This document shows positions 24,216 through 54,100 of a stretch of DNA of 64,000 nt, piece by piece. The first letter of the stretch is position 1, and every line of letters begins with the position of its first letter. The stretch is from Flectonema sp. DT1601 (taxonomy: Eukaryota; Euglenozoa; Diplonemea; Diplonemida; Diplonemidae), in the NCBI GenBank assembly GCA_964019425.1, contig OZ025804.1, forward strand, positions 1,054,001 to 1,118,000. Reading direction: 5' to 3'. Position numbers and translations under genes: made by a program. The notes below the pieces were generated by a model. That model ran no database searches, was not told the origin of the DNA, and worked only from the letters and a program-made list of their open reading frames with translations.

Positions 24216-24636
24216 TTAATTAAAACAACAACACAAATATTTAAGAATCGATTCACTACTTCTCTTTTTATAACACTGCTCGAAGACAGCCCTATTATTA
24301 CTAGGCAGCTGAACAGACTCGAGGGCGATGGTTTTGGTCAGGAATCCATCTCCTACTTCAGTCACACTACTAAGGCCTGAAAGGTCAAGAGCAGTGAGTT
24401 GTGAACAGGAACATAAGAAATTATTTCCAATAGTTGTGACACTACTGAAACCTGAAAGGTCAATAGTAGTGAGGCCTGAACAGGTAGACAAGAAACGTTC
24501 TTCAATAGCTGTGAGACTACTAAGACCTGAAAGGTCAACAGCAGTGAGTTGTGAACAGGAATATAAGAAATCCTTTCCAATAGTTGTGACACTACTAAGA
24601 CCAGAAAGGTCAATAGTAGTGAGGCGTGAACTTTTA
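24216..24636 (-). pseudogene. 3' part of the split ubiquitin-like/LRR gene (copy 4)
   Basis: About five LRRs and the family tail KYLCCCFN, with no ubiquitin-like domain or start. Its upstream edge is the left copy of a 20-bp target duplication (24617-24636). The other part of the gene resumes at 25333. The two parts are open in the same frame on either side of the insertion and their break points fall within the same KSSRLT repeat, so this was one gene until recently. Confidence 0.8.
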
Positions 24637-25332
24637 AAAAATTAACCAGTGTTTAGGGGTTTGAATCCCATGGATCCCGTCGCTCAGGCGGTCCGGTGGA
24701 GAACCGGGTAGGGCACTGTGAACGAGTTGCGGTCCAGGTGGCGTCGGAAGGCCACCGCACCAACAGATTTGTTTCTTCGCACAACAGTAGCTTGGAGACC
24801 GTAAGAGACCCAAGGTGGTTCACAACCGCTCGAACAACCGCGTGTGAAGGAACAAGATTGAAAAGAAAAGAATATAAGAAAAGAAATGCCACACACAAAA
24901 AACGACGTAGTAAAACAGAGAGGTAGGGGGAGGGATGGCCTCTTTCTCCACACATTGCATGGGAGCTCCCCGAGTAACTCGCGGGGCTGATACTGTTAAT
25001 ACATTTCAGGCGACCTGAACTTATAATCCCCCCATGCGTGAAAAGACTAAACGGGGGAAGTTTGAAGGAAATGGGGGTAAAGGGAAATCATGCCACTAAG
25101 GAAAAAATAAAAACCCGGTGGCCCCTGTGAGCTCTGGGTGCCTGAGTATCCCGGGCCGGATCACCTGACCTTCTGCTATGTTGTCCTTTTTTTTTAAAGG
25201 TTAGGCTACCGGAAAATAAAACGGGGGTAAAATAATACACAGCAACAACAACAATACGTCAGCACTCTAGTTACACACAAGGTGCATCCAGGTAACACCA
25301 CGAGGAGGCGCGCTGTCCGAGTTTCGTTACCC
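24637..25332 (-). mobile_element. 696-bp non-LTR retrotransposon derivative with 5' ribozyme
   Basis: The segment is flanked by a perfect 20-bp direct repeat (24617-24636 and 25333-25352) and interrupts an LRR repeat. Long target duplications of this size are typical of target-primed reverse transcription (LINE/SINE). The minus-strand 5' end (from 25332) folds as an HDV-like ribozyme, a known feature of R2, L1Tc and other LINE-type elements. The 3' end is A/T-rich (TTAATTTTT). No reverse transcriptase is present, so it is non-autonomous, like SIDER/NARTc-type short derivatives, or internally deleted. A B-box-like GGGGTTTGAATCCC lies near the other end. The exact repeat match implies a young insertion. 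Confidence 0.75.
25260..25332 (-). ncRNA. HDV-like self-cleaving ribozyme
   Basis: Minus-strand pairings read directly from the sequence. P1: GGGTAAC (25326-25332) with GTTACCT (25290-25296), seven pairs including a terminal G-U as in HDV. P2: CAGCGC (25310-25315) with GTGCTG (25260-25265). P3: GCC (25307-25309) with GGT (25297-25299), closing the seven-base loop TCCTCGT; HDV antigenome has TCCTCGC. P1.1 can form between CC in that loop and GG at 25288-25289. P4: ATGCAC with GTGTGT (25276-25287 region, loop CTT). J4/2 reads AACTAGA, with the candidate catalytic C at 25270. J1/2 is 10 nt, longer than in HDV. Predicted cleavage falls exactly at the element/target-duplication junction. Confidence 0.75.
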
Positions 25333-27361
25333 TAGTGAGGCGTGAACTTTTATACAAGAAATAACTTTCAATAGTGGTGAGACTACTAAGACCTGAAAGG
25401 TCGAGAGAAGTGAGTTGTGAATAAAACAAGAAATCCTCTCCAATAGTTGTGACACTACTGAAACCTGAAAGGTCAATAGTAGTGAGGCCTGAACAGGTAG
25501 ACAAGAAACGTTCTTCAATAGCTGTGACACTATTAAGACCCGAAAGGTCAACAGCAGTGAGTTGTGAACAGGAATATAAGAAATCCTTTCCAATAGTTGT
25601 GACACTACTAAGACCTGAAAGGTCAAGAGAAGTGAGTATTGAATAAGACAAGAAATCCTCTCCAATAGTTGTGACACTACTAAGACCTGAAAGGTCAACA
25701 GCAGTGAGTTGTGAACAGGAATATAAGAAATCCTTTCCAATAGTTGTGACACTACTAAGACCTGAAAGGTCAACAGCAGTGAGTTGTGAACAGGAATATA
25801 AGAAATCCTTTCCAATAGTTGTGACACTACTAAGACCTGAAAGGTCAATAGTAGTGAGGCGTGAACTTTTATACAAGAAATAATTTTCAATAGTTGTGAC
25901 ACTACTAAGACCTGAAAGGTCAAGAGAAGTGAGTTGTGAACAGGAATATAAGAAATCCTTTCCAATAGTTGTGACACTACTAAGACCTGAAAGGTCAACA
26001 GCAGTGAGTTGTGAACAGGAATATAAGAAATCCTTTCCAATAGTTGTGACACTACTAAGACCTGAAAGGTCAATAGTAGTGAGGCGTGAACTTTTATACA
26101 AGAAATAACTTTCAATAGTTGTGACACTACTAAGACCTGAAAGGTCAAGAGAAGTGAGTATTGAATAAGACAAGAAATCCTCTCCAATAGTTGTGACACT
26201 ACTAAGACCTGAAAGGTCAACAGCAGTGAGTTGTGAACAGGAATATAAGAAATCCTTTCCAATAGTTGTGACACTACTAAGACCTGAAAGGTCAATAGTA
26301 GTGAGGCGTGAACTTTTATACAAGAAATAATTTTCAATAGTTGTGACACTACTAAGACCTGAAAGGTCAACAGCAGTGAGTTGTGAACAGGAATATAAGA
26401 AATCCTTTCCAATAGTTGTGACACTACTAAGACCTGAAAGGTCAAGAGAAGTGAGTATTGAATAAGACAAGAAATCCTCTCCAATAGTTGTGACACTACT
26501 AAGACCTGAAAGGTCAACAGCAGTGAGTTGTGAACAGGAATATAAGAAATCCTTTCCAATAGTTGTGACACTACTAAGACCTGAAAGGTCAATAGTAGTG
26601 AGGCGTGAACTTTTATACAAGAAATAATTTTCAATAGTTGTGACACTACTAAGACCTGAAAGGTCAACAGCAGTGAGTTGTGAACAGGAATATAAGAAAT
26701 CCTTTCCAATAGTTGTGACACTACTAAGACCTGAAAGGTCAATAGTAGTGAGGCGTGAACTTTTATACAAGAAATAATTTTCAATAGTTGTGACACTACT
26801 AAGACCTGAAAGGTCAAGAGAAGTGAGTTGTGAACAGGAAAGCAAGAAGCTATCTCCAATAGTTGTGCGACTACTAAGACCAGAAAGGTCAAGAGAAGTG
26901 ACAGAACATCTCCGCATGAAGTTTTGTGAGATGATTGTGATGTCGGAATTTGAATTGCGGAAAGAAATCCGTTCGGCGACAGAAGGCAGCATATCATTAC
27001 TAACACTGAGGCAACCATCTTCTGAGAATGTAGGGGTGTCTAGGTTTAAGTATTCCTCATTGTGGTTTCCAAGCCATTGAAGCAGCTTCTCCCGCTTCGA
27101 TTCATCAACAAACCAGCATTTACCAAATAACTGAAACAACTTCTTCCGCATTTCCATCTCGCTGTCTGCACCCAATCCATGATCTGCCAGACGCTCAGTT
27201 TCGTCAAGGGTGTCACCAGCGAACGAGAGTTCAACTTCCTCCGGATCGACATCCCACTCAACAGCCGCCCCCTTCAACACGTCGCTCACAAGGGAATCAA
27301 CACCAACTGTGACTGACACAGCAGCGAGTTCCAATTCAGGGAATGTCACAAAAACCTGCAT
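25333..27361 (-). pseudogene. 5' part of the split ubiquitin-like/LRR gene (copy 4)
   Basis: The ubiquitin-like domain, linker and about 21 LRRs are intact from the shared MQVF start at 27361. The frame then runs into the inserted element and stops there at 25271. The LRRs are far more uniform than in copies 1-3: a two-repeat unit (FLYKSSRLTTIDLSG / FLYSCSQLTAVDLSG) recurs nearly base for base about six times, a recent tandem expansion. A truncated protein lacking the Cys tail could still be made. Listed as pseudogene because the family's C-terminal anchor is cut off. Confidence 0.75.
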
Positions 27362-27985
27362 TGTTTTGAGTGATCTGCTGAAACAAAAGAAAGGAACGTT
27401 AAATGCCATGCAGTAACAACAGTTCACACACTTTATCAAGAGAGTGCCCAGACTCAATGCGTAGCAATCAACTGTGAATGAAATAAGGTTCATAATTAGT
27501 CTTAGCAGTCACTATCACTATATTTGTAAAATACAACTGTTTTGTATCGTATTAATATAATTTAGGTTTCGAGAGTAATCCATGTGCCTCTTTACCTCCA
27601 TACTCTCATCATCAGTTATGGTGTAGCAGTAAGTCACTTAATTATTTAGATCGAATCACCCACTAATTAATAATTGATTAGTTAAGCAACAACGTCTTGA
27701 AAAACCCAACCACATAGCCATGGAGGGTTTGAATAATTTAACATCTGTTAAAGTGAAGTATAGTTATACATAACTTCGACTTGTTACGATACGTCTCCCA
27801 AGTTAATCAACTCATACAACATCAGTATCCACATCAATGTTGGTTCAAAGAAAAGAACTGTTTTCCGATTTTTACATCCCCAAAACTATTATTCCCTTCC
27901 CTTTCCTTCAAACACCTCATTACCTGTGGGGTGGCACTAAAATGAATAGATTGAGGGAATCATATTTTTATACAATCAACTTCAT
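27362..27985. repeat. Duplicated LRR 5' flank joined to LRR 3' flank sequence
   Basis: 27362-27900 repeats the upstream region of LRR copy 1. From about 27882 it passes into the block that elsewhere lies 3' of LRR genes (compare 24083-24215 and 3248-3327). It therefore marks the boundary between two former adjacent family members. Confidence 0.65.
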
Positions 27986-33800: not shown

Positions 33801-36112
33801 ATAAATAAAAGGCAACTCGTCACAAGGAGGTTTCTTATCGCAGATGACGGAAGAACAAGAATATGATCAGTGGTACCTACTTTTAATAAAAGCGAGATCA
33901 GCTCAGACAGATCTCGCTGATTGTTGGTCCTAGTCAAGACCTTAAACTGATTATACACTCTAAAAAAAGAATAAGAGTGAATGTAAAAAGAAGTAATTGT
34001 TTGTTTTTTTTTTTCTTGTTTTTTTTTTCAACCAGGACAGCAGGGGGAAAGTTTGTTTCGTACCACTCCATTTTGTCCGATTGAAGCCCTCAAATCATCA
34101 GGCAACAACGAGTGATATAAACAAATAAAAATTATCATCCTGTCAGCGAAAAACTTTTTAGGCAATCAACAGACAGCAAAAACAGATATCATGAGGCTGT
34201 CATTTCCTCTCCACTTACGAAAACTGCCTGACAGAAGTTGTTCGGTGGAAAGGGCGGACATGGAAGTTGGCATGCTGGATTTATCCTCCAACGCCAGAGG
34301 CTGTTGAAGACCGACGAGGCTGAACAGCAGAAGAACAAGAATATGATCAGTGGTAACTCCATTTTGTCCGATTGAAGCCCTCAAATCATCAGGCAACAAC
34401 GAGTGATATAAACAAATAAAAATTATCATCCTGTCAACGAAAGACTTTTTAGGCAACCAACAGACAGCAAAAACAGATATCATGAGGCTGCCATTTCCTC
34501 TACGAAAACTGCCTGACCTGAAGTTGTTCGGTGGAAAGGGCGGACATGGAAGTTGGCATGCTGGATTTATCCTCCAACGCCAGAGGCTGTTGAAGACCGA
34601 CGAGGCTGAACAGAAGAAGAACAAGAATATGATCAGTGGTAACTCCATTTTGTCCGATTGAAGCCCTCAAATCATCAGGCAACAACGAGTGATATAAACA
34701 AATAAAAATTATCATCCTGTCAACGAAAAACTTTTTAGGCAATCAACAGACAGCAAAAACAGATATCATGAGGCTGTCATTTCCTCTCCACTTACGAAAA
34801 CTGCCTGACAGAAGTTGTTCGGTGGAAAGGGCGGACATGGAAGTTGGCATGCTGGATTTATCCTCCAACGCCAGAGGCTGTTGAAGACCGACGAGGCTGA
34901 ACAGCAGAAGAACAAGAATGTGATCAGTGGTAACTCCATTTTGTCCGATTGAAGCCCTCAAATCATCAGGCAACAACGAGTGATATAAACAAATAAAAAT
35001 TATCATCCTGTCAACGAAAAACTTTTTAGGCAATCAACAGACAGCAAAAACAGATATCATGAGGCTGTCATTTCCTCTCCACTTACGAAAACTGCCTGAC
35101 AGAAGTTGTTCGGTGGAAAGGGCGGACATGGAAGTTGGCATGCTGGATTTATCCTCCAACGCCAGAGGCTGTTGAAGACCGACGAGGCTGAACAGCAGAA
35201 GAACAAGAATATGATCAGTGGTAACTCCATTTTGTCCGATTGAAGCCCTCAAATCATCAGGCAACAACGAGTGATATAAACAAATAAAAATTATCATCCC
35301 GTCAACGAAAAACTTTTCAGGCAACGAACAGACAGCAAAAACAGACATCATGAGGCTGCTATTTCCTCTGCGAAAACTGGCGATGGAGTTGACCGAAGGT
35401 GGCGGACATGGAACTGGATTTACCCTCCAACGCCAGAGGCTGTTGAAGACCGACGAGGCTGAACAGCAGAAGAACAAGAATGTGATCAGTGGTAACTCCA
35501 TTTTGTCCGATTGAAGCCCTCAAATCATCAGGCAACAACGAGTGATATAAACAAATAAAAATTATCATCCTGTCAACGAGGAGTCAACAAAACTGGTTCT
35601 GCGTAACAAATAAAATAAAAGTACACACTCAAATGGATCTTCAAGGGTCCTCTTTTTAACTTTCTTTGGTTCAGCTTCCCAAGGTTTGTTAATCTTTGAT
35701 TTGAATGCGGGTTTTGCTACTTTCGGTTTTTTAATTTCGATGCCTTCGTTGGGTTTGACTTCCTCGACTGGCAAGTCTTCAGCTTCTTCTTCTGAAGACG
35801 AGGACACATTGTCAGGACGAACTTGAGCAAGTGCTCTTGGTTGCATATCATCGTCACTCGACTCAGAATCACTATCTTCTTCATCATCAATCGCCTTAGC
35901 AATTCCATAATAGTTTCTCTTTAGTCCTTTGTTAGCAAGTCTGATCTTTCTTTTTCGCTCTGCTTCTGCTTCTTTTCTCTTTAATTCCATAGCGTCTTCA
36001 ACCATTCGGATATGAACGATTCCGAAAGCAACTAATAAACTGAACCCGATAATACCGAGAGGGACAAACATGTATCCGAGAAACTTTGGGTATTGCGACA
36101 TACCTCCTCCAC
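30811..36112 (-). CDS. Giant gene exons 8-10: helix bundle and cytoplasmic tail
   Basis: Exon 8 (35629-36112) has a helix (PLGIIGFSLLVAFGIVHI) and an acidic Ser-rich, Lys-rich cytosolic loop (EEDSDSESSDDD). Exon 9 (33594-33756) adds a helix (WLLAFIIVLYFVYPNLIQ). Exon 10 (30811-32232) has about five more helices, including the family-typical YRQERWYWEAVVMVRKL and LWCRPYDSDLLINLEAF motifs. About 250 soluble residues follow, with a Glu/Pro-rich stretch and no recognisable kinase or adaptor domain, ending VVKYY. The frame ends at a stop at 30811-30813. Confidence 0.85.
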
Positions 36113-39100
36113 CTTTATTGTTGGTTGTGTATATTTTATTATTATAAAACATCCAAGAAAGGAGGGGGGGGAAAGGGGGAAAACATACTCGCGCAATCCA
36201 GTGAAACCGTATTAATCGAGGCCGACGACGCACTATCCTGCACTGAGTATATACTCTTAAGTAATGCAGGAAATTGAGTACCGAAGTCACCGACACGCGA
36301 TGATATTTGAAGATGGGTAATTAACATTTTTATCAAAATAGGCATGTTCTTTTCTTTTCTACCCTTGATCTTTAAATTACTTCTAACGACTGCTACGAGA
36401 CCGATGCAAACAGCGAGTATGACCACTGTGATAAGGAGACTCGTCTGTTGTTGTTGTTGTCGTTTTTTTCTTGTCATCTTCAAAGAAAAAAAGGGGAAAA
36501 ACAAGAAGAAAAAATAATCTACAAACCTCTTCAGATTTTGGACACAAGATGCACTTTCCACCGCTATTTCCGTAACCTTCTTTGCAAACAGAACATTCAA
36601 CCCCCTTGTGTCCCTCAGCACAAGGATTGTCACACGCTGTGACATTGCAGACCGTATCAGAGAGACAAGGTGAATTCGCAGGAGCACACGGATAAAAAGT
36701 AGTAGTCAAATTAGTAGCCCTCCAGTGATTAGGAGCACCCTTAATATGAATAGTTCCATTACACAACGCATTAGGAGGGCATGGTTTGCATTGTTCTGAA
36801 AACTCAACAGCATATGTGGTTGAAGCTGGGCTGCATGAACCCACGTGAATAAAATGACTTTCGACTGGCTGGACTGTTTTTCCCATAGCAGCAGGAACTG
36901 TTACTCTGAATCTTAGTTTGTATATAATTCCGTGAAAACCGACTAGTTTAACATTTCTAAATACAACAGCTCCGTGTTTATCAACAAAGACTGGTTCTAA
37001 TCCGCTCGATTTCATTGCGCTCCAACAAACTTCCGCATCAGAAGGAGAATATGAGTAGTTGAACTTCTTCAAATCACTTGGAACACATTCACACAGTCCG
37101 GGTCGTTGGCAACTACTAATTTCACTTTTATTCGTAGAAACGTCTTTCCATACGAACGCTCTCCATTCCGCAACCACACCAATAGTTGCTTCATTCGGTT
37201 TTGTAACAACGTTGTGAGCAGGATCGAAAAATTCCAATTCAGGTTGAACAGTCAGTGGTAACTCAGTCGCATGGTTTGACACATTCGATGGTTGTTTTCT
37301 AATATTTAGCGAAACCGCCTGTCCCGACAAAACTAAAATCGTCACGCTAGTCTTCCACTCCGCTACAATATAAGAGTCAAACGTCGCTGTCGTTTTATTC
37401 AACGTAAACCCTCTAATGATGTGACTGAATTCAGCTTGGACTGATCCAGTGGGAGGTTTCAACAATGTGATGTTCGGAAAGTCGATAACACCGAACTCCA
37501 TAACTCTACTCGAAACGCCTTCCATTATTATTGAAGTGGCTAAGTTTGAGTTGTCGGCAACTTGTAGATTTCTTAAATTCATCGTTATGTCTCGCTTGAA
37601 TGGTCTTCTCAAGTCATTTTGATCATAGTGAAGAAGTTCATGACCTACCTCATCAGTTGTGTATATTGTAATAGTTTCTACTACAGATTGAACGTCAGCT
37701 AACACACTCAGTTGTGGTGTTCTAGTCCCAAGACCAGCAGGTCGACCGTAAACAGCATACGTCACTGCGTTCTCTGAATACAACTGTCCATCTAAAGACA
37801 CTTCAATATAAGCAGGAATGAAAGTAGGTTTTCCATTAATGCTGGGTGGTTGTCTACATAAAACTCTAAAACTATTTAAGTACGTCACATTATGTGAAGG
37901 ATGAGAAGGATCTGATAAGTAGTTTTGATGTTTGCCGGCATAGATTGCATCTCCGTTTGGAGGATCCCACGGAGTCTCTTTAGAAAACCATTTACATTTT
38001 AAAAACCTGCTATCAACAAACCCAATTCCGCTAACTGTAACTATCTCACCTCCTTGAAACACACTAAACTGAGGGATGGTTGATAACACAGTCGCTGTAG
38101 GTACTCGAAGAACTGTCAGTTTGTTTAGACTAAAACTAGGACTTCGAGGTGTGCATGTTGAACCCCCTAATAATGTTACTTCTAATTGTTGTCCACCACA
38201 TCCTCCACCACCACCTGGATCTGATGGTGTTTCGCATATTACTTGAGCTCCAGTATTGGCAATTGCTTTGTTAACAATAACCTGTTTTTGGTTTTGTTTT
38301 GTTTTGTTTTATTTTTATGAAGTGACAAAACAGAATAAGAACATACCTCAGTACCCGAACCAAACTTACAACAAGTAGTTCCAAGATTGAAGAATCCTTC
38401 TCCAGTGACGGTGATGAATGTACCGCCTCTGGTATCCGCAATCCCGGGATTCAGCATCTGCAATGCGAATAAATTCAATTTAATAACTTTTATGTTCGAT
38501 CCAACTGAGGCGAGGCAAAACATCGTACGAGTGCTCCTGTTGTTGGTTTAGGGTTTGAATAATACCAAAATATAAAATAATGATAAAAGGGAATATGCCT
38601 TGACTCAAGTCTACTAACCAATACTTACGGTTCCCAACACTCAGACTGGGAACAGCTTAGAAGGTAATATGAAAGCTACGACTCTTTGTATTACAGTCTG
38701 TTCACGTTTTCCTTTCAGCCGAGATAACGGAAAAGCTTGGATGATATTACTGTTTCAGATCTTAAGCAATGATGTGCAAAACATAATTATCAAAAACAAA
38801 CAAGAATAGGTTAAAGTTTCGCAGTATTAATGTAAATAATTAGTACACAAAAGACAAGGATGAGGAAGGTAGTCATCCTTCCTATTGTTAGCAGAGCGTT
38901 GACAGTCAATGAAGAATATTGAGGAAATGTTAAAAAAAAGTGCTCTCTTTTTTTTTTTTTTTTCCCTTTATACCCGACAATAACCCAATTGTTAGGACAA
39001 TACAAAACAAACACTTCGCAAGTGTACCGACGCAATTAGGAGGAGATAAAAACACGAGGGAAAAAAAAATTTTTTTTTGAAGCCGTGTTCCATGGCCCCG

Positions 39101-42100
39101 ATAATGGTTTTGAAAAAAAAAAAAATGAAAAACTCACATACTCATCCAAAGTCGCAGAAATAATTCTCTCGACTGCAGTTCCAGTTCTAAGAAAACTTGT
39201 CATTCCGTAGATTTGAAGATTCATCATTTGAAATTTATAAACAGTCGTTGGGTTCGCATCGATGTGTGTAAATACAAACCCCGCCCCCGACAAGGGATCT
39301 AACTTTAACACCGACACTGTAATCGCATTTGATATTTGATTTCGGAGAGTGTCGTACTGGATGACTTCTTTTGTTTGTAAGTTTATTCGAGCCATCTTTA
39401 AACCAAAATCTATTTTAATCGATACGAAGATTAGTAACCCCGACTGCTGAACTGCAACAGCTGCTGAACACGTCTCACAGGAAGGAACAGTTATGTCTGT
39501 GGAGAGTGATCTTGGAATTAGTGTCGCTGTTCTGAATAAAACAATTTCCCATTTTCCATTCTTTGAACCGGCAAGGCAAAGCTGTCCGATCGATGCAAAA
39601 AAAACTGCTTCGTGGATTTCATCGATTTGGTTACTGACATCTGCAATTCGGACGATCGACATGGTCGATGATCGCTGGTAGTGAACTTGACGAGCATTCG
39701 CACCAGTCCAAACTAAATACACTAAATCTTGAGCAGTATCAGTCAAACTCCTGACTAATTTCAATCCCAACGACCCCAACGTTATAATTCCTCGATGAGG
39801 TATTCCAACTGGAATGTCAATATTCCTTCCCAAAGGTTGACTCTGCAACACCCTCTTCGCATCATCATCACTAATCGTATTATCAACCTGATCAGTCTGC
39901 CATGTTGGAATAGATGAGTTCTTATAAATATGAAATGGACTCCGACTAAGAGTTGTGAATCTTCTTCGAGCACCAGCCACAATCGAATCGGCTGAAATGG
40001 AATTTCCAGCCGCAACTGGATCACCTGCTCTGGCAGAAGCAAAGGTTTTCTTTCCTCTGAAATACGAGTAGATTAAGTCATCGGAGGTGATTAAAAAAAC
40101 TTTTTCAGTTCCGATCCAAGCGTCTACTACTGCCGCTCCCAAGTCTTCCATGTCAAGGATGTCTTCAGCTGCGTTAAACAATAAAACAGGTCTACCTCCA
40201 ACGTATTGAAGACCATATAAAGTATCCATCATGTTAGTACCAACACCGGTTACTTTCATTTGGAATCTAACAGGTGTTGAAAAGTCAGCTGTTCTTGTAA
40301 TCCGAACGTCTTTGGACATACATTCGAAACCAACGTAGCCGTCAGCGCAGTAGCTGCAACTTTCACCTGCCCAATGACCGTTGGATTGGTCGAGGAAACA
40401 ATTACATGCTCCAGTTCCTCTGTCACATGTTCCATGGAATAGACAGAGGCACTCTTTGAGACAAAGATCACCCCACCAAAAGTCTTTACAACTATCACAC
40501 TTCAGACCAGCATAATGACCATCAACACTGTCTTGACATTCACATGTTCCTGTCAACGGATTACATTGAGCGTGTGCTAAGTGATCACATTCAACATCAG
40601 GATGACAATGAGTTCCACAATCTGTTCCGTAGTAGTCGGCATCACAAACACAAATACCACCATTAGTGTGACCATCTAAACAATAACCATTTCCTGAACA
40701 TGGTAATGCAGCTGTATCGTTACTCTTTGGACAGGGGAGATCACATGCTGGTGTAGCCCAGAACTGATCACAGAAACATGTTCCTCCAATTGAAGCATCT
40801 GGATTCTTACCAGACCTTCCATTATAACACGGAGTCGTACAGTTACTTCCGTAGAATCCTTGTTGGCAGAGATCGCAGTTTGCGCCTTCCCAAAAACCGG
40901 TTTTGACGTTTCCAAAGCAAGTGCAATTCCCGTCGATTTTAGAACAGTCACCGTTACCAGAACAAGGATGAATTGATCCTCCAGTGCATGGAATGTCGCA
41001 GGCTGTACCAGCCCATCCAAACGAACAGGTGCATGTTCCATTTCGTGAAGAACCGTCATCGCATACTCCGTGAGCATTGCAGGGATTATGGTAACCACCC
41101 GGACACTCTATTTGACAGGCTTTACCTGCGTAGCCTGCGAAGCATTTACAAGTACCTTCAATCGTGTTACAAAGACCTTGATTATTACAAGGTGTTCCTG
41201 CTCCTCCTGGACACTCACTACTACAGTCAGCAAACATATAACCAGAGTCACATGCGCAAAGACCGTTTCCTAGTTTTCCATCTGAGCATGCACCTCGTCC
41301 GCTGCATGTGGCGATACCAATTCCACCTGGACATTCATTCTCACAGTTTGGACCCCACTGTCCATTAGTACCACATAAGTGTGCGAGGCATTCCTCTCCA
41401 GACATGTCGCATGCTTTTTTTGTTGGAGAATTACATCTGCCTGCTTCACAAGAATAACAAGCAGCATCTCTGCAAGTTCCAACACCAGAACAAGGGATAC
41501 CCGGCTCTAAGGCTGTTCCGTTGTGTGGACATTCCATATCGCATTGTACTCCAGACCATCCGTAGGCACATTGATCACACATAGAACCACTCCAGTAGCC
41601 TGTTGTTGGTGACTTATCACATTCACAACTTCCATCAGCAGGTTTGCATGTTCCCTTTCCAAAACAGGGTCTGGCTGATCCTCCGTTGCACTCTCGTGAA
41701 CAGTCTGACAGAGACCAACCGAAATAGCATGTGCAAGTCCCTGCACCTGATGTACCTTGACTGCATGTACCGTGATTACTACAAGGAGATAAAGCTCCTC
41801 CTGGACATTCATTTAAACATGATTCACCCCAATAGCCATTCGTACATGAGCTACATGATGATCCAGTCCATCTACCAAGTGTTACATCCGTAGTACATGA
41901 ACACAGTCCAGTACCATCAATGCCGTCTGCACAAAGACCATGACCAGTACAAACCTTAATAGATTCCATATAAGGAAGCTTCGACCGCGGGCAGGCAACA
42001 CCGCAATCAGGACCAGCGTAGCCAGGATCGCAGGTACATATTCCAGTTCCCTTTTCACCATCACTGCAAGACCCTTGACCACTGCATGTAATAGGTTTCC

Positions 42101-45100
42101 CAAACACATTACCGGGACATTGGAGTTTGCAACCTGTGCCGTAGTAGCCAACCCAGCAGTCTTGGCAAGCATCTCTTCCCCAATAGCCAGTGTCGGATGC
42201 GTATTGACATTTGCAGCTGCCGTCTCCGTATTGACCTTCTGAACAAGTTCCTCGTTTTGTACAAACGTTGTCGACCCCTCCAGGGCATACTGCTACACAA
42301 GAACTTGAGTAATATCCCGCTACACAAGCATCACACTTTGTACCTGTCCAGTAGCCGTCTACATCGTTTCGGGTGCAATTGCAAGAACCTCTCCAATTTT
42401 CACAATTTCCTCCTGGACAGAGTCCATCAAAACAGGAGCCGTGTCCAACGCATGGTTTGCAAGCTCCGCCAGCACACTCGTTTTCGCAGCTTGCTCCCCA
42501 ATAGCCTGCAGCGCAATCTCGGCAGTCGGTTCCGTCCCAAAACCCGTGTGTAGAATTAGAGAAGCAGTTACACTGTATTCGAGACGGGTCGCACTCACCA
42601 TGACTTGAACACAGGATGGGATGCGCCATTTGAGAAGGACATGTCCGATCACAGGTACTTGTGAACCAACCAGTAGCACACTTTGAACAATCGACACCTG
42701 CCCAGTGACCCAAAGCAGATGAATCTGAACAAACACATTTCGCAACTCTACTAGAACCAGAACCAGATGGAACACACGTACCTGTTCCCGAGCAGGGTGA
42801 TCCTGACTGTCGACCAGGACAGTCTAAGTCACAGAAAGCACCAACATATCCCATGTCACAAGCACATGATCCATTTCCCTTATTACCTTCAAAGCATTTC
42901 CCATTACCAGCACAAGGTAGTTTGTATCCCTCAGATATAAATCCAGCACATTCCATTGAGCAGTTGGTATTAGCGTATCCCGAATGACAGACACAAATAC
43001 CATTTAATGATTCACCATAAAGACAAGGCATCAGACACTCTTCTCCAGAGAATCCTTGTTGACAAGTACTGCAGTCAATGCCTTCCCAGAATCCTAGAGC
43101 GGAATCGCTGTGGCATCTGCAAGAACCATCATTCTGCATGCAGTCACCATGAAAGTTGCAGGGTGTTTCAGCTCCTCCAGGGCATGTTAGTTCACATGCT
43201 TCTCCTGCGTATCCAAAGTGACATGTGCACTCACCAGTACCTGATGCTGGTGGGGTACCTCTGAGGTACGCACCTTCACTACAGACGCCATGACCAGTAC
43301 AAGGATTTCCAACACCTCCTTTGCACGTTAGTTGGCAGTCAAAACCTGCAAAGCCTGACTTACATGTACACTTTCCAGTATCAGTGTTACAAAAGCCATT
43401 ACTACCACCACATGGATACAATGCACCACCATCACAAACCTTACTACAGGATGCTGTTGCGTATCCATTAAAGCAGGTACAGGCGCCATCTCCTTGTTTG
43501 CCTTCTCGACAGTTTCCGTGTCCTGTACATGGAAGGGAGGCGCCTCCAACGCATTCAAATTCACAGCTTTGGCCCCAATACCCAGCAGGGCAGAAGTATG
43601 CACTGCAGGCAGCTGGTCCCTGAAATTCACAAGTCCCACCGCAGTAACCTGCATCACAGAAACAAATTCCGTCCAGGCATTGACCGTTGCCACCGCATTC
43701 CAGACCCTGCCGCATTGAACACTTTATGTTGCAGTTTTGACCTGACCAACCGAGTAGACAACTTGAGCAGTCAGGGACGTCCCAATATCCTGTAATTGGA
43801 GACTCAAAACAAACACATGATCCAGACACAATTAAAGGAGGTCCTGGATCACCTTGTTGACACTTTCCTCTTCCGTTACAAGGAAGTACAAAACCACCTG
43901 TGCACACAACATCGCATGAGCTACCTGCATAGCCGTAGTCGCAGACGCATTTTCCAGTTCCAGATTTTCCATCTTCACATTTTCCATTTGAAGAACAGAC
44001 TCCGTAAAAACTATTCACACCTGGACAAGTTGTCTTGCAATCAGAACTTGCATATCCACTTATACATTTACCACAAGCGACACCAGCAAGAAACCCGTAT
44101 GAAGCACCTGATGCGGGTGTTGTACCCGGACAGTGACATGCACCTGTACCACCAAGAGCATTGAATTGACCAGGTGCTCCCCATTGACATGCTTCTTGTC
44201 CTCCTGGGCCGTTGAGTGCACCACTGCAGTAGTCTCCGTTTGGTCCTTTGGGACAGGCGAGAGAACAGTCTTCCCCAGCGTATCCTCTGTTGCAAGTGCA
44301 GAGCCCAGAACCGGTCATCATGTCGTCACAGACTCCGTTGCCTTCACATGCGAAGAATTTACCCGGACACTTTGATTGACATGTTGGTCCAAAGTATCCA
44401 GCAGCACAGTCTTGACAAAGTAACCCTGACCACCAACCTGTTTCTATGATATCAAAACAAATACAATCACCACTACCAGTTGGTCCTTGAGAGCAGTCAC
44501 CGTGACCACTACACCAGGTTTCGGGTGTGAGTCCACCAGGACATTCTTGTTTACATTCAGAACCCCAGTATCCTACTGCACAGCTGTCACACTTAGTACC
44601 CTTCCAGTATCCAATACCTGGGGTATCGAAGCAGGCACATATACCAGTTCCTGTTACACCAGAGTCACAGATACCGTGACCACTGCACGGATCACATGCT
44701 CCTCCAGGACAGGGGTTGCGACATTCAAAACCCCAATAACCAGTTTGACACATTTCACATGCGAGTCCTTCCCAGTAACCTCCGTCTGTGTCTGACCGAC
44801 AGTCGCAAACTCCTCGAGTTTTGGGACAGGTACCGTGACCTGAGCAGGGTAATCCATTCGGTCCTTTTGGACATAATTGATCACACATCAATCCGAAGTA
44901 CTCACCCAGACATGATCCGCAGTCTGGTGGAGACCAGAATCCTAATGTTGAGTCTTGATTACAAGTACAGGAACCATCATTACTACATATTCCATTACCA
45001 CTACACTCTTTACCTGTTGCAGCATGACCAGCACATCGAACAGAACAATCGAATCCTCTAAAACCGATATTACAAATACAGGTGCCGTCACCTGCGTTGG

Positions 45101-48100
45101 TCGCATTACAAACTCCGTTGCGATTACAAGGATTTCCTGCACCTCCGATACATTCAATAGAACAGTCTCTCCATGCCCATCCTTCACTGCAGGCACACTC
45201 TCTACCAGATGTTGTTCCGGATACTGACGGGCAGATCTCTGAACAAGAATCTCCGAAGTATCCGTCTTTACAATTATTGCATTCAAGTCCTCCAAAATGA
45301 CCATCCACTTCATTATCAATACAACTACATGCTGCTGTTAGGGTGTCACACGTACCGTGTCCTGAGCATGGGTTTTTATATCCACCAGGACATTCTTTAT
45401 CACACTTTTCTCCTGCATAGCCGCGTTCGCAGACACATTTTCCATCACCAGAAGCACCCATGTTGCACGTACCTCGGGAACTGCAAACACTGCCGGGTTC
45501 ACCATAACCCTTACAAGCAACTGCGCAGGTTGGTGTTGAGAAATAGTGATCGCATGTGCAAGCACCTGTATGAGTTTGGTTGCATGTTCCGTGGAATGAA
45601 CAAGGGGTCGATGCCCCACCGTCACACTCAAGACTGCAAAGCTCACCAGCGTATCCTTCAAAACACAAACATTTACCATCACCAAACTTACCATCTGAAC
45701 ATGATCCGTGACCATTACATGGCTCTGGTGGGTCGACGTTAGTGTTAGTGCCATCACACAATGCGTCGCAACTGAGTCCAAACATTGCTGGAGGACATAG
45801 GAATCCGCTGCACTCAACGCCACTGAGTTCACAAGCGCTTCCACAAAAGTCTTGTCCACAATCATAACATGCGCCTTGGTAACATCGACCCCTGCCAGAG
45901 CAGGCAAGGCTGCTAAGTCCTACAGGACAGCCGAGGTTACAATTAGAACCTGACCATCCAACAAGACACTCATTACAAGTATCTCCTCTCCAATATCCCA
46001 AGTCTGTTGATGCGTAGCATGTGCAAGAGCCATCAGAGTTGCAAACACCTCTTCGGTTGCAAGGATTACCTGCTCCACCTGCACATTCAAATTCGCATGC
46101 TGTTCCTGAATAGCCATCTTGACAAGTACATAAACCAGTACCAGTAATCCCCGTTGAACAGAATCCATTACCAGAACAAGGATTATTAGCTCCACCTGGA
46201 CATTCTACTATGCAAGTCTCGCCTCCGTAACCAGGTCGGCAGTCTTCACAGGTGGGTTCAATCCAGTAACCGATGACAGGATCTCTTGGACAGGTGCACA
46301 GTGCTGTTCCGGCTCGTCCGTCGCTGCATGCACCGGCAAATCCAGAGCAGACTAAATTAGAAAGCGATGACTTGGGACAGTGCTGATCACAGTTCTCACC
46401 AGCGCTACCAGCAAAACAATCACAAAGACCAGTTCCAGTGATACCATAGTCGCAGACACCCTTCCCTCCACATATCTGACCATTAGATGATGGGCATCCA
46501 AGAGAACAGTTTGGTGCATACCAACCGTTGGCACAATTGTCACAAAGAACACCTGACCAGACTCCACCATTATTCGGATCTGAGTAGCACGCACAGGATC
46601 CGCTTCCAAATTGACCAGCGTTACAGACACCGTTACCAGAACAGGGTTCTATCCATCCTCCAGGGCATTCTTTAGTACAGGATCCTCCGTACCATCCTTC
46701 TTTGCAATCAGAGCAGTCAGTTTTTGACCACCAACCGTCAGTGTTGTTTGAAGTACAGTTACACCATCCGTAACCCATTACTCCCTCAGAACATGATCCG
46801 TGTCCTGAGCAGGGATTACATGCACCTCCTGGACACACACCTTGACATCCTGATCCCCAGTAACCTGATTGGCATGTATCGCATACTGTTCCCTCCCAAT
46901 ACCCAGCCTCTGGTGATGCATCGCAGTTACAGAACTCTACTTCTGTTGGACAGGTTCCGTGGTCGCTGCAGTTCTTTCCGTTTGGAGATTTCGGACATGT
47001 TTTCAAACAATTAGTTCCAAACCAATCAGGTAGACATCTGTCACAAGACGTACCAGTCCAGTGTCCGAGTTCTAAACTATCTTCACAAACACAAACACCA
47101 CTAGCAGTACAATTACCGTGACCATTACAAGGTGTTGATGCACTACCTGGACATTCTGATTCGCAACCTTGACCTAGATAGCCGTAGTCACAAGTACAAG
47201 ATCCGTCACCTGTAGATCCAGAGTTGCAGGTACCGTGATTGTTACAAGGGGTTAATGCTCCTCCTTTACATGCAATGCTGCAGTCAGATCCAGCGTATCC
47301 TGAATAACAGGTGCAAAGACCATCAGCTGCTGAGCAGGTTCCTCTTCCAGTACAGGGAGAGGTTGCTCCTCCTGGACATTCAATACAATCAACTGATCCG
47401 TAGCCTGAATCACAATTACATAATCCATTACCTTGTTTTCCATCACTACAAGCACCATGAGTATTACATACGGTTACTGTTCCAACTTGATCTGTTGCGA
47501 AACCAGGACATTGTTGACCACAACTTGGACCGTAGTATCCATCAGGACAAGCATAAATATCACATCCTCTTCCTGTTATGTTACAAGATGTTCCGCAGAC
47601 TTTTTCATTCAAATGGAACTCGGGACACAGACAGACTCCAAGTACACAGCTGCCAATATCAGAGCAGACAGCTCCTGTTTCATTTCTTGGACAGGGAGTT
47701 ATACAACCAGGAGTTGTTGCTGTTGGACTACTGTATCCATATTGACAAGTACTGCATTGAGCATCATCCCAAAACCCTTGAGACTCACTTCGATAGCAAT
47801 CACACTTCCCTGTTAGTGAGATACATTCTCCATGAAAACTACATGGGTTAGTGGGTCCACCATCACATGGGATTTCACATTGAGTGCCTGCATATCCTAA
47901 AGTACACGAACAGGTTCCGTTACCTGTTGGTCCTTCGTCGCATGTTCCTCTGCCTTGGCATGGGATTCCAGCTCCTCCGGCGCATTCAATTCTGCAGCCT
48001 TGAGAATACCCAGACAGACATGTATCACATGCAGAACCACTCCAGTATCCATCTCCAGCATTTGTTGGACACGTACACGTACCTGTTCCAGCAGTACCAT

Positions 48101-51100
48101 TAGAACACGAAGTGATGAATCCTCCACAGATCTCATTATTAAAGTCTCGTGGACAGGCTTTGTCACAAGACAGACCTGCGTATCCGTCATAACAATCACA
48201 TGTTCCAGGTCCAAATAAACCACCAAGGCATAATCCATTACCGTTACAAGGAGAAGCAGATCCTCCAGGACACACGAGAATACACGCTGATCCATAGTAC
48301 CCGTACTTACAATCTTGACAAGCATAGCCATCCCAATATCCTTCAGTAGTGGATGCAGTGCATTGGCAGACTGCAGGGGTTCCAGGGCAACTGTTGTCGC
48401 ACGCTCCTCTTGAGTTACACATGGTTCCATTAAATGAGGGTCCAATAGTTTCTATTCTGAGATTATGATTCCAATACGGACATGCTTCAGTGAATGATAA
48501 GAAGATATTATCCTTACTCTCTTCATCATCTCGTACTGCTGTTACCCTTAAGTCAGAACCTGCATATCTATATCCTACACAGGTTAGTTTGGTATCTGGA
48601 GTGGTTGAGTCGTGAACGACCGTTTCACATTTTTTACTTGCCTGAAGCCTTGAGCCAATATAAACGTCAGCTCCGGTTTCACCGAAATTGAAACCCGTTA
48701 AAGTCAATGTTTCTGTTCCTTTAGTTGGACAGAGGACTGTGTGATTCAGACTATCTTTTGCACAGTCAGTTAACCCCGAGGATATCAGTTCAGCAGAGCA
48801 ACCGCATCCGGTGATGGTTCGAACGACAGGTAGAGGACGGTAGGAAGCCATGATGTTTTCTGTTTCAATGTTTGTTTCCAACCAAGAAGCAGCATCAGCA
48901 ACATCTGTCATTGAGTTCCCCGTATGCGATGTGATGAACCTTTTCACTCCATCGTAACCACTGATTTCTCTGAATTCACCTCCCCATGGCGTTCCAACAA
49001 TCCCCCTTCTCACTTCAATTCTGTGACCAACACCCAATCCAGGGTATTCTAAGCAGCGGAGTAGCACGTCTGAAATGATTTCTATTTTTTTACATTCATA
49101 CGGTCCTACCCAAATCGATGGAACACCAAATCCCTGAGTCCCAATAAAATATTTCCCCCTCACTGTGAGAGTCATCGTTCCATTAGTGAAACATGCCTTG
49201 GTGTGATTCTTATAGAATGATAGCGTACAGCCTTCTACAAATGTTACTTCAGGACGTCTTGAGAATGATATGGTCGCGTGTTGTTGTGTAAAATTTAAAC
49301 CATAAACAGTTCTTATTGTTGGTGTTACCATAGCGACTGCTGGATGAGGAGGATACTCACCTGTAGGATGGTACGATGGTAGTGTAGTTGGAGTCATGTA
49401 CGACATCGAAGAGCAGACTACACGTTCGTCTTCTCCACCAATCAGAGTATTGTTTATGTAGATACCATGTGTTACTGTGCCGCATTCAAACTCTCCAAGC
49501 CAGACTCTTGCTCCAGTGTTTCCGAAACCTTTCCCGTGAAGAGTTATTGAATGAGATCCACTGGAGTGACAGTTCACAGTCGATGGATGGAAATCCATAC
49601 AACCTGTGACTCTCTCAATCATAAGTTCTGAGTAACTTATCGTCGTTTGTTCAATACTTCGTTCTCCATGAAGAACAACACTTAATGAGATATTCTGACC
49701 TGGATGACCCATTGAGGGATCCCATGGGTATCCACTACATCTTAATGTCGTTCCTTGTTTCTTATGAAGAATACCTTGACCAGTTCCACCTTGTTCAGGG
49801 TAGGCATAGACGTATGATCCTTGCCAGTTTTGATCATTTGACGCGTGAACATCAACACAACTGTAACCTCCTATTTGAACATCACCAATTCGTCTTGTTC
49901 CACTGTCGTCAATCCATAAATCATATCCTACGATTGTTATAATATTATTACCAGATTGTGGACAGTGGTGGGTGTAGTCTCCTTCATCAAAACATCCAGA
50001 TACTCTTTCTATTCTCGGAATCGGTCGGAAATTTAAATACGTGTTCGACGGCGATCGATCCCAGAGTCCGTTGGATTTTACCTTTACTAAATTATATGTA
50101 CCGTATCCTGTTGTGGGTTTATATTTATTTATTTTTTCTCCTTACCTATGTTAGAGCTACCGCCGCTCAAAATCGGGGATGACAGATTGCAAAAAAAAAA
50201 AAAAAAAAAAAAACTTTACAAACCTGAATATTTTGTACACAGTATAGACGTGTCGTTGAGAACAGTAACATTAACACATGGGAAATGACCAAACATCACG
50301 TCAACAGCTCCAAAGCCACCATATCCAACAAAGTTCTTTCCCATTATTTCAATCGAAGTAGTCCCACTTGTGGGACATCCCGTCCACGTCGCATTTGTTT
50401 CACCGCAATTATCTATCCCGTAGATGACAGGATGAGATGCGAATGAAACAGTCACCCAGTCCTCAGTTTTATTTCTTTCTCTCCAATTAACCACCGTTAT
50501 CGGAAGATTTATCTCCTCTTTCAGGTATAATTTATTTCCTGAATTTTCTTGATTTCCATATGCGAATGTCGATTCTGGAGATTGGTCACCATGTTGATAT
50601 CCCAGATAATCATCACAAATAAGAACTTGATGATGTTCCCAAAGGGGGTTTTGAGTATAGTCGGTGGCATTGTGCCACACTAGGGATTCGCATTTTCCTC
50701 CTCCGACATATGCTTGGATTCTGCTGTCGGAATCAAGTCCAAATCCTTGACCCCAAATAGTCAGACTCGTTGAACCATCAGGAGGACAGTTAGCAGTGCT
50801 TGGCCAGATATCAAGACACCCAGTAACCTGAACAATCTTAACATCAGTCCAACACTCCGAGTGAACCGGACACATCGCTGCGACTCCGTTATTCGCCAGG
50901 TTTCGATCTTCATTTGTGATCGTTCCTTTAAAGCTCAGCTGAGCTTCAGCAAAAACATCCACACGAAACCAACGAGAAACATAATTCTTTTCCTTCGTAA
51001 GAGCAGGATCGTATGGTACTTCAGCGATAACACATCGAAGGAAGTCACCAGTTTCTGATGCGAAACAGTCTTGGTCTGACGGCTCGTGTTCTGATCCTTC

Positions 51101-54100
51101 ACGTAATCCAAGAGGTAATGAAATAAGACCTGGATCTGGTCCAGTATGACCATGAGGGTTGACAACTTGTGGATCATAAACTCCATAAAGATTACCTCCG
51201 TCAACACTAAAGACAGTTCGAACATCAGTAGCAGTTGTCGGACCATCGTTGTATATACGAAGTTCGTAGGCTGTTTCTGGCCATGTTGGCCAGACGATAA
51301 GCGGTCGTAAGTCTGGAGTGTACACAACTGGGTTTAGAATAAATCTGTTATTGCTAATGTCATGATCGTTCTCAGTGAAGATATCGACTGTAAAATTAAC
51401 CGTACCATTAAAATATTGATCAACAATAAGAGTAATTGGAAGTTCATATTTCCAGGGAAGGATTGGATTATGATGGTTCTCAACGCTATATGGATCTGCC
51501 GCAATGGGTTGGATCGAATCGATGTCGTCGGGATACTTGGACTTAATCCCTTCTATTTCACATATTATTTTTGTTTCGTTCCATTGACATTTATGATAAG
51601 GAGCGATCCAGGGGGTTGCGAATGGTCCAAAATTAACTCCTTCGCTGTTTACCTCCATTATGATTGTTGTTTTTCCTGCCCAACCAGCTCCACTATTCAT
51701 AATAATCACGGTAACGTTGTTCTCACCAACAGTGATATAATCGAAGTCAGTGATGTTAACGTGTGCGTGAACATCAGCTGCGTGAGTAGCAGTTTGAAAG
51801 TTTTGTTTTTCGGTGTACAGTCCATCGTTGTTTTCAATATAAATATTAATTTCCATTGACGGATCAACATCAGGACCAATCACATCAAAAATAAACGGAA
51901 GAACAACATCACTGTCTGGTTTGAGTAAGAATTGAGCAATTGAAGTCTTTCGTTTACTATCAACCCATTCAGAGTGAGGTGTCCAATCAAATTCAAGAGG
52001 ATAAGTTGTATTCAACTGTGATAAGAATGTCCCCGGCCAACTTGAATATCTCGTCTTCTCAAGACCATAGTCCTCAGGGTTAATCGACTTCTTAAATCTG
52101 ATAAATCCATCCCAAAAGAACTTCGGTTTTGGATAAATAGTTTCCGTATTTGTATATGTTGGTAATGATTGACTTTCAGAGATCGTCAGAGATTTCGTTA
52201 ACGTCTTTGTTAAAGATGTTGATTCTGTTGCGATCAGTGTATGAGTAGCGGTAAACGATCTAGTCTTACTCGGTGTCGGTTTTGTTAAATTAGCTAAAGT
52301 CTGACTAGAGACACTATTACTTCCGGTGTATGTTGGCGAATGAAATGTTCCCGTCGTCGTTTCTGTTGGACTTCCGAGTGTGATCGAAGCAGTAATTTCT
52401 GATGATAAACTTTCAGAGATCGTATTCGTCTCCGTCGGTGATGTTTGCGTCACAGAAAACGAATGACTTAAAGACAACGACTCTGATATCGTACTGGTGT
52501 GCTTTGTTACTGTGGTTTTGGTTTTGTTCTTTGTTTTCCCAACAACTATAAAACATAACATATAAATACTTCAAAACATACCCGTAACCAGATCAGTCAA
52601 CGTCTCTGTTGCCGTAAATGAAGAAGAAAACGTCTCCGTTGGAGACGGGCCAGGAAGCCTCGCAATAAGCCACTTCTGTAATGTTTGGTTATACATCGCA
52701 TCCACTTTATTCCATCCTGTTTTTGGTTTATTATTATTTACTTTCTTTAAAAAAAGAAAACGTTCGTAAGAAGAAAGTCTCGTTTATTTAGAGTTTTTGT
52801 TTTTAAAAAAAAAAAAAAAAAACCCACAAATTACTATAATAGCAGACAGGGAGTTCTTACAATAAAGAACGCAGATCCTCCGTTTTGAATTCATTTCTCC
52901 ACTTCCGCTATAAAACAGAATGTTAAATAACATGTTAATAAAAAACAAGTTTGTCAATGTGTTCTTTCTTTCCTCGTATGGTGCGACGACGAAGTTTGTT
53001 TTTTTTGGATTTGAGTGAGTTGGAATAATCTGACAACACTGTATTTAACGCGAGATGCGTTGTGACGAGAGTTCACCTCAACATCCAATAGTTGTCTAAT
53101 TCGGGACTGCTAGAGGGGCGAGTATCGACAACAGAACAAGAATGCGATCAGTGGTAACTCCATTTTGTCCGATTGAAGCCCTCAAATCATCAGGCAACAA
53201 CGAGTGATATAAACAAATAAAAATTATCATCCTGTCAGCGAAAAATTTTTTAGGCAACGAACAGACAGCAAAAGAAACTGACATCATGAGGCTGTCATTT
53301 CCTCTCCACTTACGAAAACTGCCTGACAGAAGTTGTTCGGTGGAAAGGGCGGACATGGAAGTTGGCATGCTGGATTTATCCTCCAACGCCAGAGGCTGTT
53401 GAAGACCGACGAGGCTGAACAGCAGAAGAACAAGAATATGATCAGTGGTAACTCCATTTTGTCCGATTGAAGCCCTCAAATCATCAGGCAACAACGAGTG
53501 ATATAAACAAATAAAAATTATCATCCTGTCAACGAAAGACTTTTTAGGCAACGAACAGACAGCAAAAACAGACATCATGAGGCTGCCATTTCCTCTCCAC
53601 TTACGAAAACTGCCTGACAGAAGTTGTTCGGGGGAAAGGGCGGACATGGAAGTTGGCATGCTGGACTTACCCTCCAACGCCAGAGGCTGTTGAAGACCGA
53701 CGAGGCTGAACAGCAGAAGAACAAGAATGTGATCAGTGGTAACTCCATTTTGTCCGATTGAAGCCCTCAAATCATCAGGCAACAACGAGTGATATAAACA
53801 AATAAAAATTATCATCCTGTCAACGAAAAACTTTTTAGGCAACGAACAGACAGCAAAAGAAACTGACATCATGAGGCTGCCATTTCCTCTCCACTTACGA
53901 AAACTGCCTGACAGAAGTTGTTCGGTGGAAAGGGCGGACATGGAAGTTGACATGCTGGATTTATCCTCCAACGCCAGGCTGAACAGCAGAAGAACAAGAA
54001 TGTGATCAGTGGTAACTCCATTTTGTCCGATTGAAGCCCTCAAATCATCAGGCAACAACGAGTGATATAAACAAATAAAAATTATCATCCTGTCAACGAA

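Follow-up and report, generated by a model that had tools for sequence, protein, structure and literature searches.

A putative HDV-like ribozyme at the exact 5' end of a SINE in LRR repeats, and a likely LINE helper with its own such motif

Introduction

What sets the 5' end of a non-autonomous retroelement that interrupts an LRR gene in the diplonemid Flectonema sp. DT1601, and which enzyme would have placed the element there? An earlier note on this locus had drawn an HDV-like self-cleaving ribozyme on the minus strand, with its cut at the very edge of the insertion, and had likened it to the ribozymes of known LINE-type elements. Here, we follow this up in the window, that is, the whole 64-kb stretch of DNA that was analysed (C25:1054001-1118000), and in the genome that contains it (89.5 Mb, 92 contigs).

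Results

An HDV-like fold at the first base of the element

Every HDV-like helix, including P4 and P1.1, can be drawn at 25332-25260 on the minus strand (pairs in Table 1), and P1, P2, P3, P1.1, P4 and J4/2 are all present in the sequence as the earlier note had claimed. The predicted cut falls directly at the base adjoining the target duplication, and the duplication is 20 bp long (25333-25352 and 24617-24636). On the minus strand, 25298-25308 reads CCTCCTCGTGG, an exact match to the conserved 11-mer of R2, and CCUCCUCGUGG has been described as the most conserved sequence of R2 5' regions (PMC5035012). J1/2 of the window ribozyme is 10 nt long, which is unremarkable because loops of 216-498 nt have been reported for silkmoth R2 (PMC3774820).

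The fold descriptor used for searching was composed after the candidate was known, and its hit rates are therefore guides rather than p-values. Applied to both strands of the 64 kb, it gave a single match, at 25332. A relaxed descriptor matched 5 times in 3,000,000 random positions of the window's composition and 0 times in 1,500,000 of LINE composition, while a looser one matched 6, 0 and 2 times per 2,000,000 random positions of three compositions and still found only 25332 in the window. The random rate of the fold is about 2-3 per million positions, in keeping with the earlier judgement that chance is unlikely.

The covariance-model match that had been proposed as a check, and whose absence was to speak against the earlier note's reading, did not materialise at threshold: Rfam gave 0 matches on the window at gathering score and nothing above threshold under permissive settings, and a genome search with RF00094 gave no match above threshold. 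Below threshold, an RF02682 alignment starts exactly at 25332 (14 bits, E 2.1). Rfam models represent particular subfamilies, and a missing threshold match limits the naming of the motif more than its working. As far as the letters go, the observed fold is confirmed and its reading as an HDV-like ribozyme is supported.

Table 1. Features of the SINE locus in the window and ribozyme motifs of two LINE families
Feature	Position in window	Strand	Details
HDV-like ribozyme (predicted)	25260..25332	-	predicted cut 25333/25332; only descriptor match in window
P1 5' strand GGGTAAC	25326..25332	-	
P1 3' strand GTTACCT	25290..25296	-	P1 of 7 bp, first pair G-U
P2 5' strand CAGCGC	25310..25315	-	
P2 3' strand GTGCTG	25260..25265	-	P2 of 6 bp, one G-U
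P3 GCC/GGT with loop L3 TCCTCGT	25297..25309	-	
P1.1 GG	25288..25289	-	partner is CC in L3
P4 hairpin ATGCAC-CTT-GTGTGT	25273..25287	-	helix ATGCAC/GTGTGT
J4/2 AACTAGA	25266..25272	-	proposed catalytic C is 25270
Non-autonomous retroelement core, 692 nt	24641..25332	-	at least 43 near-complete copies
Oligo-T tail, window copy	24637..24640	-	
5' target duplication TAAAAGTTCACGCCTCACTA	25333..25352	-	20 bp
3' target duplication	24617..24636	-	identical 20 bp
Interrupted BspA-type LRR frame	25271..27493	-	PF13306 E 1.2e-99; enters ribozyme, stop at 25271-25273
75-bp LRR repeat continuing behind element	24364..24631	-	
LRR-LINE ribozyme (predicted)			P1 GGGATC/GGTCCC, P2 GACACC/GGTGTC, P3 GCC/GGC, L3 TCCTCGC
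LRR-LINE ribozyme, remaining parts			P1.1 CC/GG, P4 CGACTTC/GGGGTCG, J4/2 ACAAGAC
Dispersed LINE ribozyme (predicted)			P1 GGGACC/GGTCTC; P2 ACAAA/TTTGT or CAAAAT/ATTTTG; C and A in J4/2
Dispersed LINE P4			CGGC/GCCG, CGG/CCG or AGGC/GTCT

A SINE family with exact 5' ends in one phase of an LRR repeat

The SINE core has 43 near-complete copies among the 44 matches listed (91-100% identity), a lower bound for the genome, and the family is young because most copies are 97-100% identical. We assembled a set of 39 distinct full-length copies with both flanks, which omits copies that fall short of the query by more than 3 nt (5' end) or 4 nt (3' end) and copies with short flanks. In this set, 38 of the 39 copies start with GGG and one with CGG. 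Perfect 20-bp target duplications ending at the base before the element flank 24 of the 39 copies, two further copies have one mismatch and 13 have two or more; the longest exact flank repeat is 20 bp in 22 copies and 22 bp in two. Read in the orientation of the ribozyme, the tail is an oligo-T tract whose length varies, and T is the first base of the duplications. The earlier note had held that copies starting elsewhere would speak against its reading; full-length starts proved consistent, and only 5'-truncated copies, which account for five of six additional 3'-end matches examined, begin further in. One truncated copy of 98 nt (L064) has a 20-bp duplication as judged by eye. Such 5' truncation is normal for LINE-mobilised elements, and the family also has the other marks of a LINE-mobilised SINE or SIDE, being non-coding, tailed and flanked by target duplications. 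The copy pattern is what target-primed reverse transcription would leave if its RNA template started at the predicted cut.

One phase of the LRR gene repeat accounts for 37 of the 39 targets by eye (30 by a strict pattern), and the insertions in LRR targets have the orientation of the LRR frame. Of the two off-phase copies, one lies directly behind a LINE 3' end (L015). The genome holds 1161 sites within two mismatches of the LRR target; if every one stood for a 75-bp unit, they would make up roughly 0.1% of the genome. Another locus (L062, at about 1480-1530) has the last 22 nt of the SINE plus a T run between the end of an LRR gene and another LRR unit, a junction that may reflect a template switch during insertion. 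Of the 50 GCCTCCTCGTGG sites, five that lie outside the SINE list (L088, L089, two in L090, L091) were inspected by eye and rejected as ribozymes. Elsewhere in the window, two arrays of closely related 291-293-bp units lie about 19 kb apart (34065-35579 and 53133-55263), and a 3558-aa frame with EGF/teneurin-type and TIG domains (Pfam) occupies 39036-49712 on the minus strand.

Within the SINE family, common variants of the fold are merely swaps between standard and wobble pairs: element position 18 in the P2 5' strand is C or T, and position 40, the fourth base of the P1 3' strand, is A or G, the pair being kept either way. G1C, T4G (facing G40), C7G and T43A each break a P1 pair and occur in one copy each. 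The proposed catalytic C is T in two of the 37 copies that have a base there (L036 and the C16:1244290 copy in L048). Because both of these copies have perfect duplications and no other private variant in common, the change would either have arisen after insertion or not have prevented mobility. In a silkmoth R2 ribozyme, changing the catalytic C to U abolished cleavage (PMC3774820), and the natural C-to-T copies are therefore ready controls.

An LRR-targeting LINE as the likely helper

The LRR target with GG directly behind it was matched 38 times, and we inspected the 15 matches not on the SINE list. Eleven start with GGGATCACGACACCTGCCTCCTCGCGGCGGTCCCGG, one is a degenerate relative, one is a 5'-truncated copy coding for reverse transcriptase (RT) and two are unrelated. 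The core of this family, which we call LRR-LINE, has 19 exact matches in the genome and one more with three mismatches. All 20 of its 5' junctions read GGGATC, with an extra G in front in two, and the preceding base is T, A, C or G. Perfect 20-bp duplications flank four of the eight copies with a full right flank (11 copies have paired ends), and the other four differ at 2-5 of the 20 positions. In one of the latter four (C2:539832 and C2:555959; L099, L116, L100, L117), the left flank equals the right flank of a neighbouring LRR-LINE over 18 visible bases, which suggests recombination between copies.

A 7.75-kb copy on C64 contains ORF1 (976 codons counted from the element start), a TGA and then, in the same frame, ORF2 (1578 codons), with the 2A-like sequence GDVERNPGP, an APE endonuclease (PF03372, E 3.2e-6) and an RT domain (PF00078, E 1.3e-23). 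No RNase H domain, a feature of the L1Tc/ingi clade, was found in ORF2 residues 1-1234, and none is precomputed for the 1542-aa homologue P0003. The 3' end, CAAAATGGTACATATA, is shared by six loci.

The 5' end of LRR-LINE can be drawn as an HDV-like ribozyme that differs from that of the SINE in P1, P2 and P4 (Table 1). Its P1 has 6 bp, and a P1 of 6-7 bp has been reported (PMC4908430). The end pair of P2 is lost in one subfamily (L098, L100, L101, L109). Below threshold, RF00094 alignments start at the 5' ends of L098 (20.6 bits, E 2) and L108 (18 bits, E 6.3), and none at that of L097. Among nine distinct 238-nt 5' ends, 2 of 68 ungapped columns vary in the ribozyme and 38 of 158 downstream (Fisher p 4e-5).

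SINE and LRR-LINE have nothing convincing in common except GCCTCCTCG(C/T)GG, the best blast match having E 0.73. Their first 80 nt reach a score, through this common core, that 17 of 1000 shuffles also reach, and their 3' ends share no sequence, the local score being matched by 515 of 1000 shuffles. Because LRR-LINE shares target, strand, phase and duplication length with the SINE, it is likely to be the helper of the latter.

The same fold in a dispersed LINE family

A third family came to light through an ORF1-start pattern taken from homologues, MPPRGGLGR, which had 51 matches: 28 with one mismatch (ATGCCTCCACG..), 19 LRR-LINEs and 4 others. Several of the 28 have an RT match 4.6-4.7 kb downstream (C39, C41, C67), which places them with the A-rich-tailed LINEs. 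The 5' ends of this dispersed LINE read GGGACC in all nine examined (seven of the 28 plus L094 and L083), in unrelated flanks, and they were not selected by the search because the pattern begins 13 nt further in. Seven of the nine ends satisfy the descriptor; L136 fails on P2 and L137 is chimeric. The ORF1 AUG overlaps the foot of P3. Relative to LRR-LINE, pair 5 of P1 is C-G instead of T-G, P2 is re-paired and P4 is altered on both sides. These compensatory differences among SINE, LRR-LINE and dispersed LINE support the predicted fold; a MAFFT alignment of the ribozymes misplaced P2 and was excluded from the pair counts. With many exact 5' ends and two more families showing the same fold in other helix letters, the likeness to LINE ribozymes seen in the earlier note has been borne out.

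LINE 5' ends with a spliced leader

The genome has tandem arrays of the leader AACCAACGATTCTAAAGCTACAGTTTCTGTACTTTATTG followed by GT, and there are 637 exact matches to the 3' part of the leader with a G added. Compared with the leader tabulated for 'Euglenozoa 14' (PMC3795323), 2 of the 39 positions are different. Four LINE 5' ends (L069 on C2, L070 and L071 on C11 and C24, L077 on C22) carry part or all of the 39-nt leader, as if a trans-spliced RNA had been reverse-transcribed, and the HDV-like fold is absent within 60 nt of all four. At one dispersed ribozyme LINE (L094, C2:1241917), the leader lies directly before GGGACC, its last G overlapping. A comparison of match lists shows that two of nine 5' ends of the dispersed type on C2-C15 carry the leader, which at this LINE is an occasional addition by template jump or trans-splicing.

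Among 14 other LINE loci, drawn from an RT list of the best 150 of 759 candidates, none of the 10 recognisable 3' ends has a T tail: nine are A-rich and one is (TAAC)n. The 3' end was not recognisable in L084, L086 and L087, and in L085 a T run and foreign sequence cut the 3' region short, which we read as another insertion. We rejected as helper the LINE with a (TAAC)n tail that lies next to one SINE copy (L069), on account of its other tail and the spliced leader at its 5' end. A search for T8 followed by the LRR target gave 22 matches, all of them, by position and letters, SINE ends or ordinary repeat units. In L086 (C69:703150-704950), an array of GCAAACCC follows the RT match near the contig end and is probably a telomere next to a LINE. 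Four LINE families (L113, L069, L070, L072) have a single in-frame stop between ORF1 and ORF2 (TGA, TAG, TGA and TAG, respectively), and in several of these ORF2 starts with a 2A-like NPGP.

The host reading frame continues through the predicted LRR-LINE ribozyme

In all 10 LRR-LINE loci tested, as well as in L012, no stop interrupts the LRR frame on its way through the ribozyme (..IT|WDHDTCLLAAVPDDFDRGR..) towards ORF1. In L012, the first in-frame AUG is codon 118. Codons 24-76, before any AUG, have pN/pS of 0.11-0.43 in six non-independent pairs, and these pre-AUG ORF1 codons look as though they were under selection. The 23 codons of the ribozyme show no silent change in six pairwise comparisons, and two gaps downstream of it are 9 and 6 nt long. 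P0013, matching the L012 copy, is a predicted LRR-ORF1 fusion protein (PF13306). P0018, from the transcript assembly of another species, has 38% identity in the searched region and by eye opens with a hydrophobic stretch, followed by LRR units that lead into WDRVTRLHAAVSDDFDRGR and ORF1, although an assembly chimera is possible. Translation of the frame likely begins either at a host start or at a non-AUG codon close to the ribozyme; in a passage citing earlier work, the latter has been suggested for other LINE ribozymes (PMC5035012). In the window SINE, the host frame stops inside the ribozyme, at 25271-25273.

Discussion

Altogether, our analysis makes it probable that the SINE at 25332-24641 is a non-autonomous element whose first 73 nt form an HDV-like ribozyme that would cut an LRR co-transcript at the first base of the element, and that the SINE is then likely copied into another LRR repeat by an APE-type LINE with the same target and its own ribozyme motif. 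The fold, the exact 5' ends, the 20-bp duplications, the single sense phase of insertion, the endonuclease and RT of the LINE and the compensatory differences can be read directly from the DNA. According to this model, the co-transcript of an LRR gene would be the source of the SINE RNA, which would cleave itself at the first base of the element in an R2-like release, and LRR-LINE would supply the enzyme that copies it into another LRR repeat. Because the duplications begin with T, the T tail may reflect annealing of an oligo-U 3' end of the RNA at the nicked target.

How firmly the fold itself stands can be judged from the three families together. It is true that the descriptor was made post hoc and that random sequence also yields matches, yet a fold expected about 2-3 times per million random positions lies at the 5' ends of all three, while four spliced-leader LINE 5' ends lack it within 60 nt; that P1 to P4 are drawable by accident and meaningless is therefore hardly credible. 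The 5' stretch might instead be an internal promoter or protein-binding signal that sets the 5' end, its fold being a relic or non-catalytic. Pr77 of L1Tc has been described as promoter and ribozyme at once (PMC4035085), and a mere signal would accommodate the perfect duplications of the two C-to-T copies and the 0 Rfam matches at threshold. However, a promoter or binding site would conserve letters, whereas the three families keep the pairing while letters of P1, P2 and P4 change, each with its fold directly at the 5' end, and we regard this explanation as improbable.

A ribozyme that is real could still belong to a SINE mobilised by a LINE other than the LRR-targeting one. This is unlikely in our view, although it deserves more weight than the two preceding explanations: SINE and LRR-LINE have no common 3' sequence (515/1000 shuffles), and their tails differ, being oligo-T and CATATA, respectively. 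The identical repeat phase, strand and 20-bp duplication argue against another helper, as do the lack of a T tail at the 10 recognisable ends of 14 other LINE loci, within an RT list of the best 150 of 759 candidates that leaves room for further LINEs, and the T8-plus-target search, whose 22 matches were only SINE ends and ordinary repeat units.

The uninterrupted frame of LRR-LINE permits a further idea, which we put forward tentatively and rate at somewhat less than even. The LRR-LINE ribozyme may lie within one shared host-transposon frame, such that the uncut transcript would be a host-started LRR-ORF1 fusion message and the cut one a template with a precise end; target specificity would keep the frame, and the SINE would use this site too, its own ribozyme closing the frame. 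If true, a retrotransposon borrows its start codon from the gene family that it interrupts, and a ribozyme acts as the switch between message and template. The ORF1 frame of LRR-LINE is apparently fed by the host gene. Moreover, three natural ribozyme sequences and the natural C-to-T copies are open to direct tests, and ribozyme-made and spliced-leader-bearing LINE 5' ends can be compared within one genome.

Among known systems, the closest in working is R2 with its SIDEs, and the closest in host and enzyme type is L1Tc/ingi. In R2 and the Drosophila R2 and R2-R1 SIDEs, too, a target-specific LINE and its riders both begin exactly with a ribozyme (PMC3414825, PMC3774820, PMC5035012), and these systems share the release from a host co-transcript and the CCUCCUCGUGG core. 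In contrast, R2 targets 28S rDNA and the elements described here a protein-coding LRR repeat; LRR-LINE has an N-terminal APE endonuclease (PF03372) and not the C-terminal restriction-like one of the R2 clade, and its ribozyme differs in sequence from that of the SINE. The R2 strategy of sitting in a repeated gene, riding its transcript and cutting itself out would thus be extended to a protein-coding family in a spliced-leader protist.

A 2A-like peptide is also found in L1Tc, whose target and duplication differ from the LRR target and the 20-bp duplication here. L1Tc/ingi with NARTc, RIME and SIDER resembles the present system in combining an APE-type LINE that encodes an RT with short riders in a spliced-leader host, and in carrying an HDV-like ribozyme within the first ~80 nt (PMC4035085). 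The trypanosomatid riders are described as truncated relatives that share Pr77 with their LINE (PMC4035085), whereas SINE and LINE here share only the core. In the open-access literature searched, we found no paper on LRR-targeted LINEs and none combining 'HDV-like ribozyme' and 'Euglenozoa'. SLACS, CZAR and CRE are target-specific LINEs in the repeated spliced-leader genes of euglenozoans, and they differ from LRR-LINE in target and endonuclease type. LINEs and riders that end in a ribozyme are already known, while the protein-coding target, the differing ribozymes of rider and helper, and the frame shared by host and transposon are new with respect to the literature searched.
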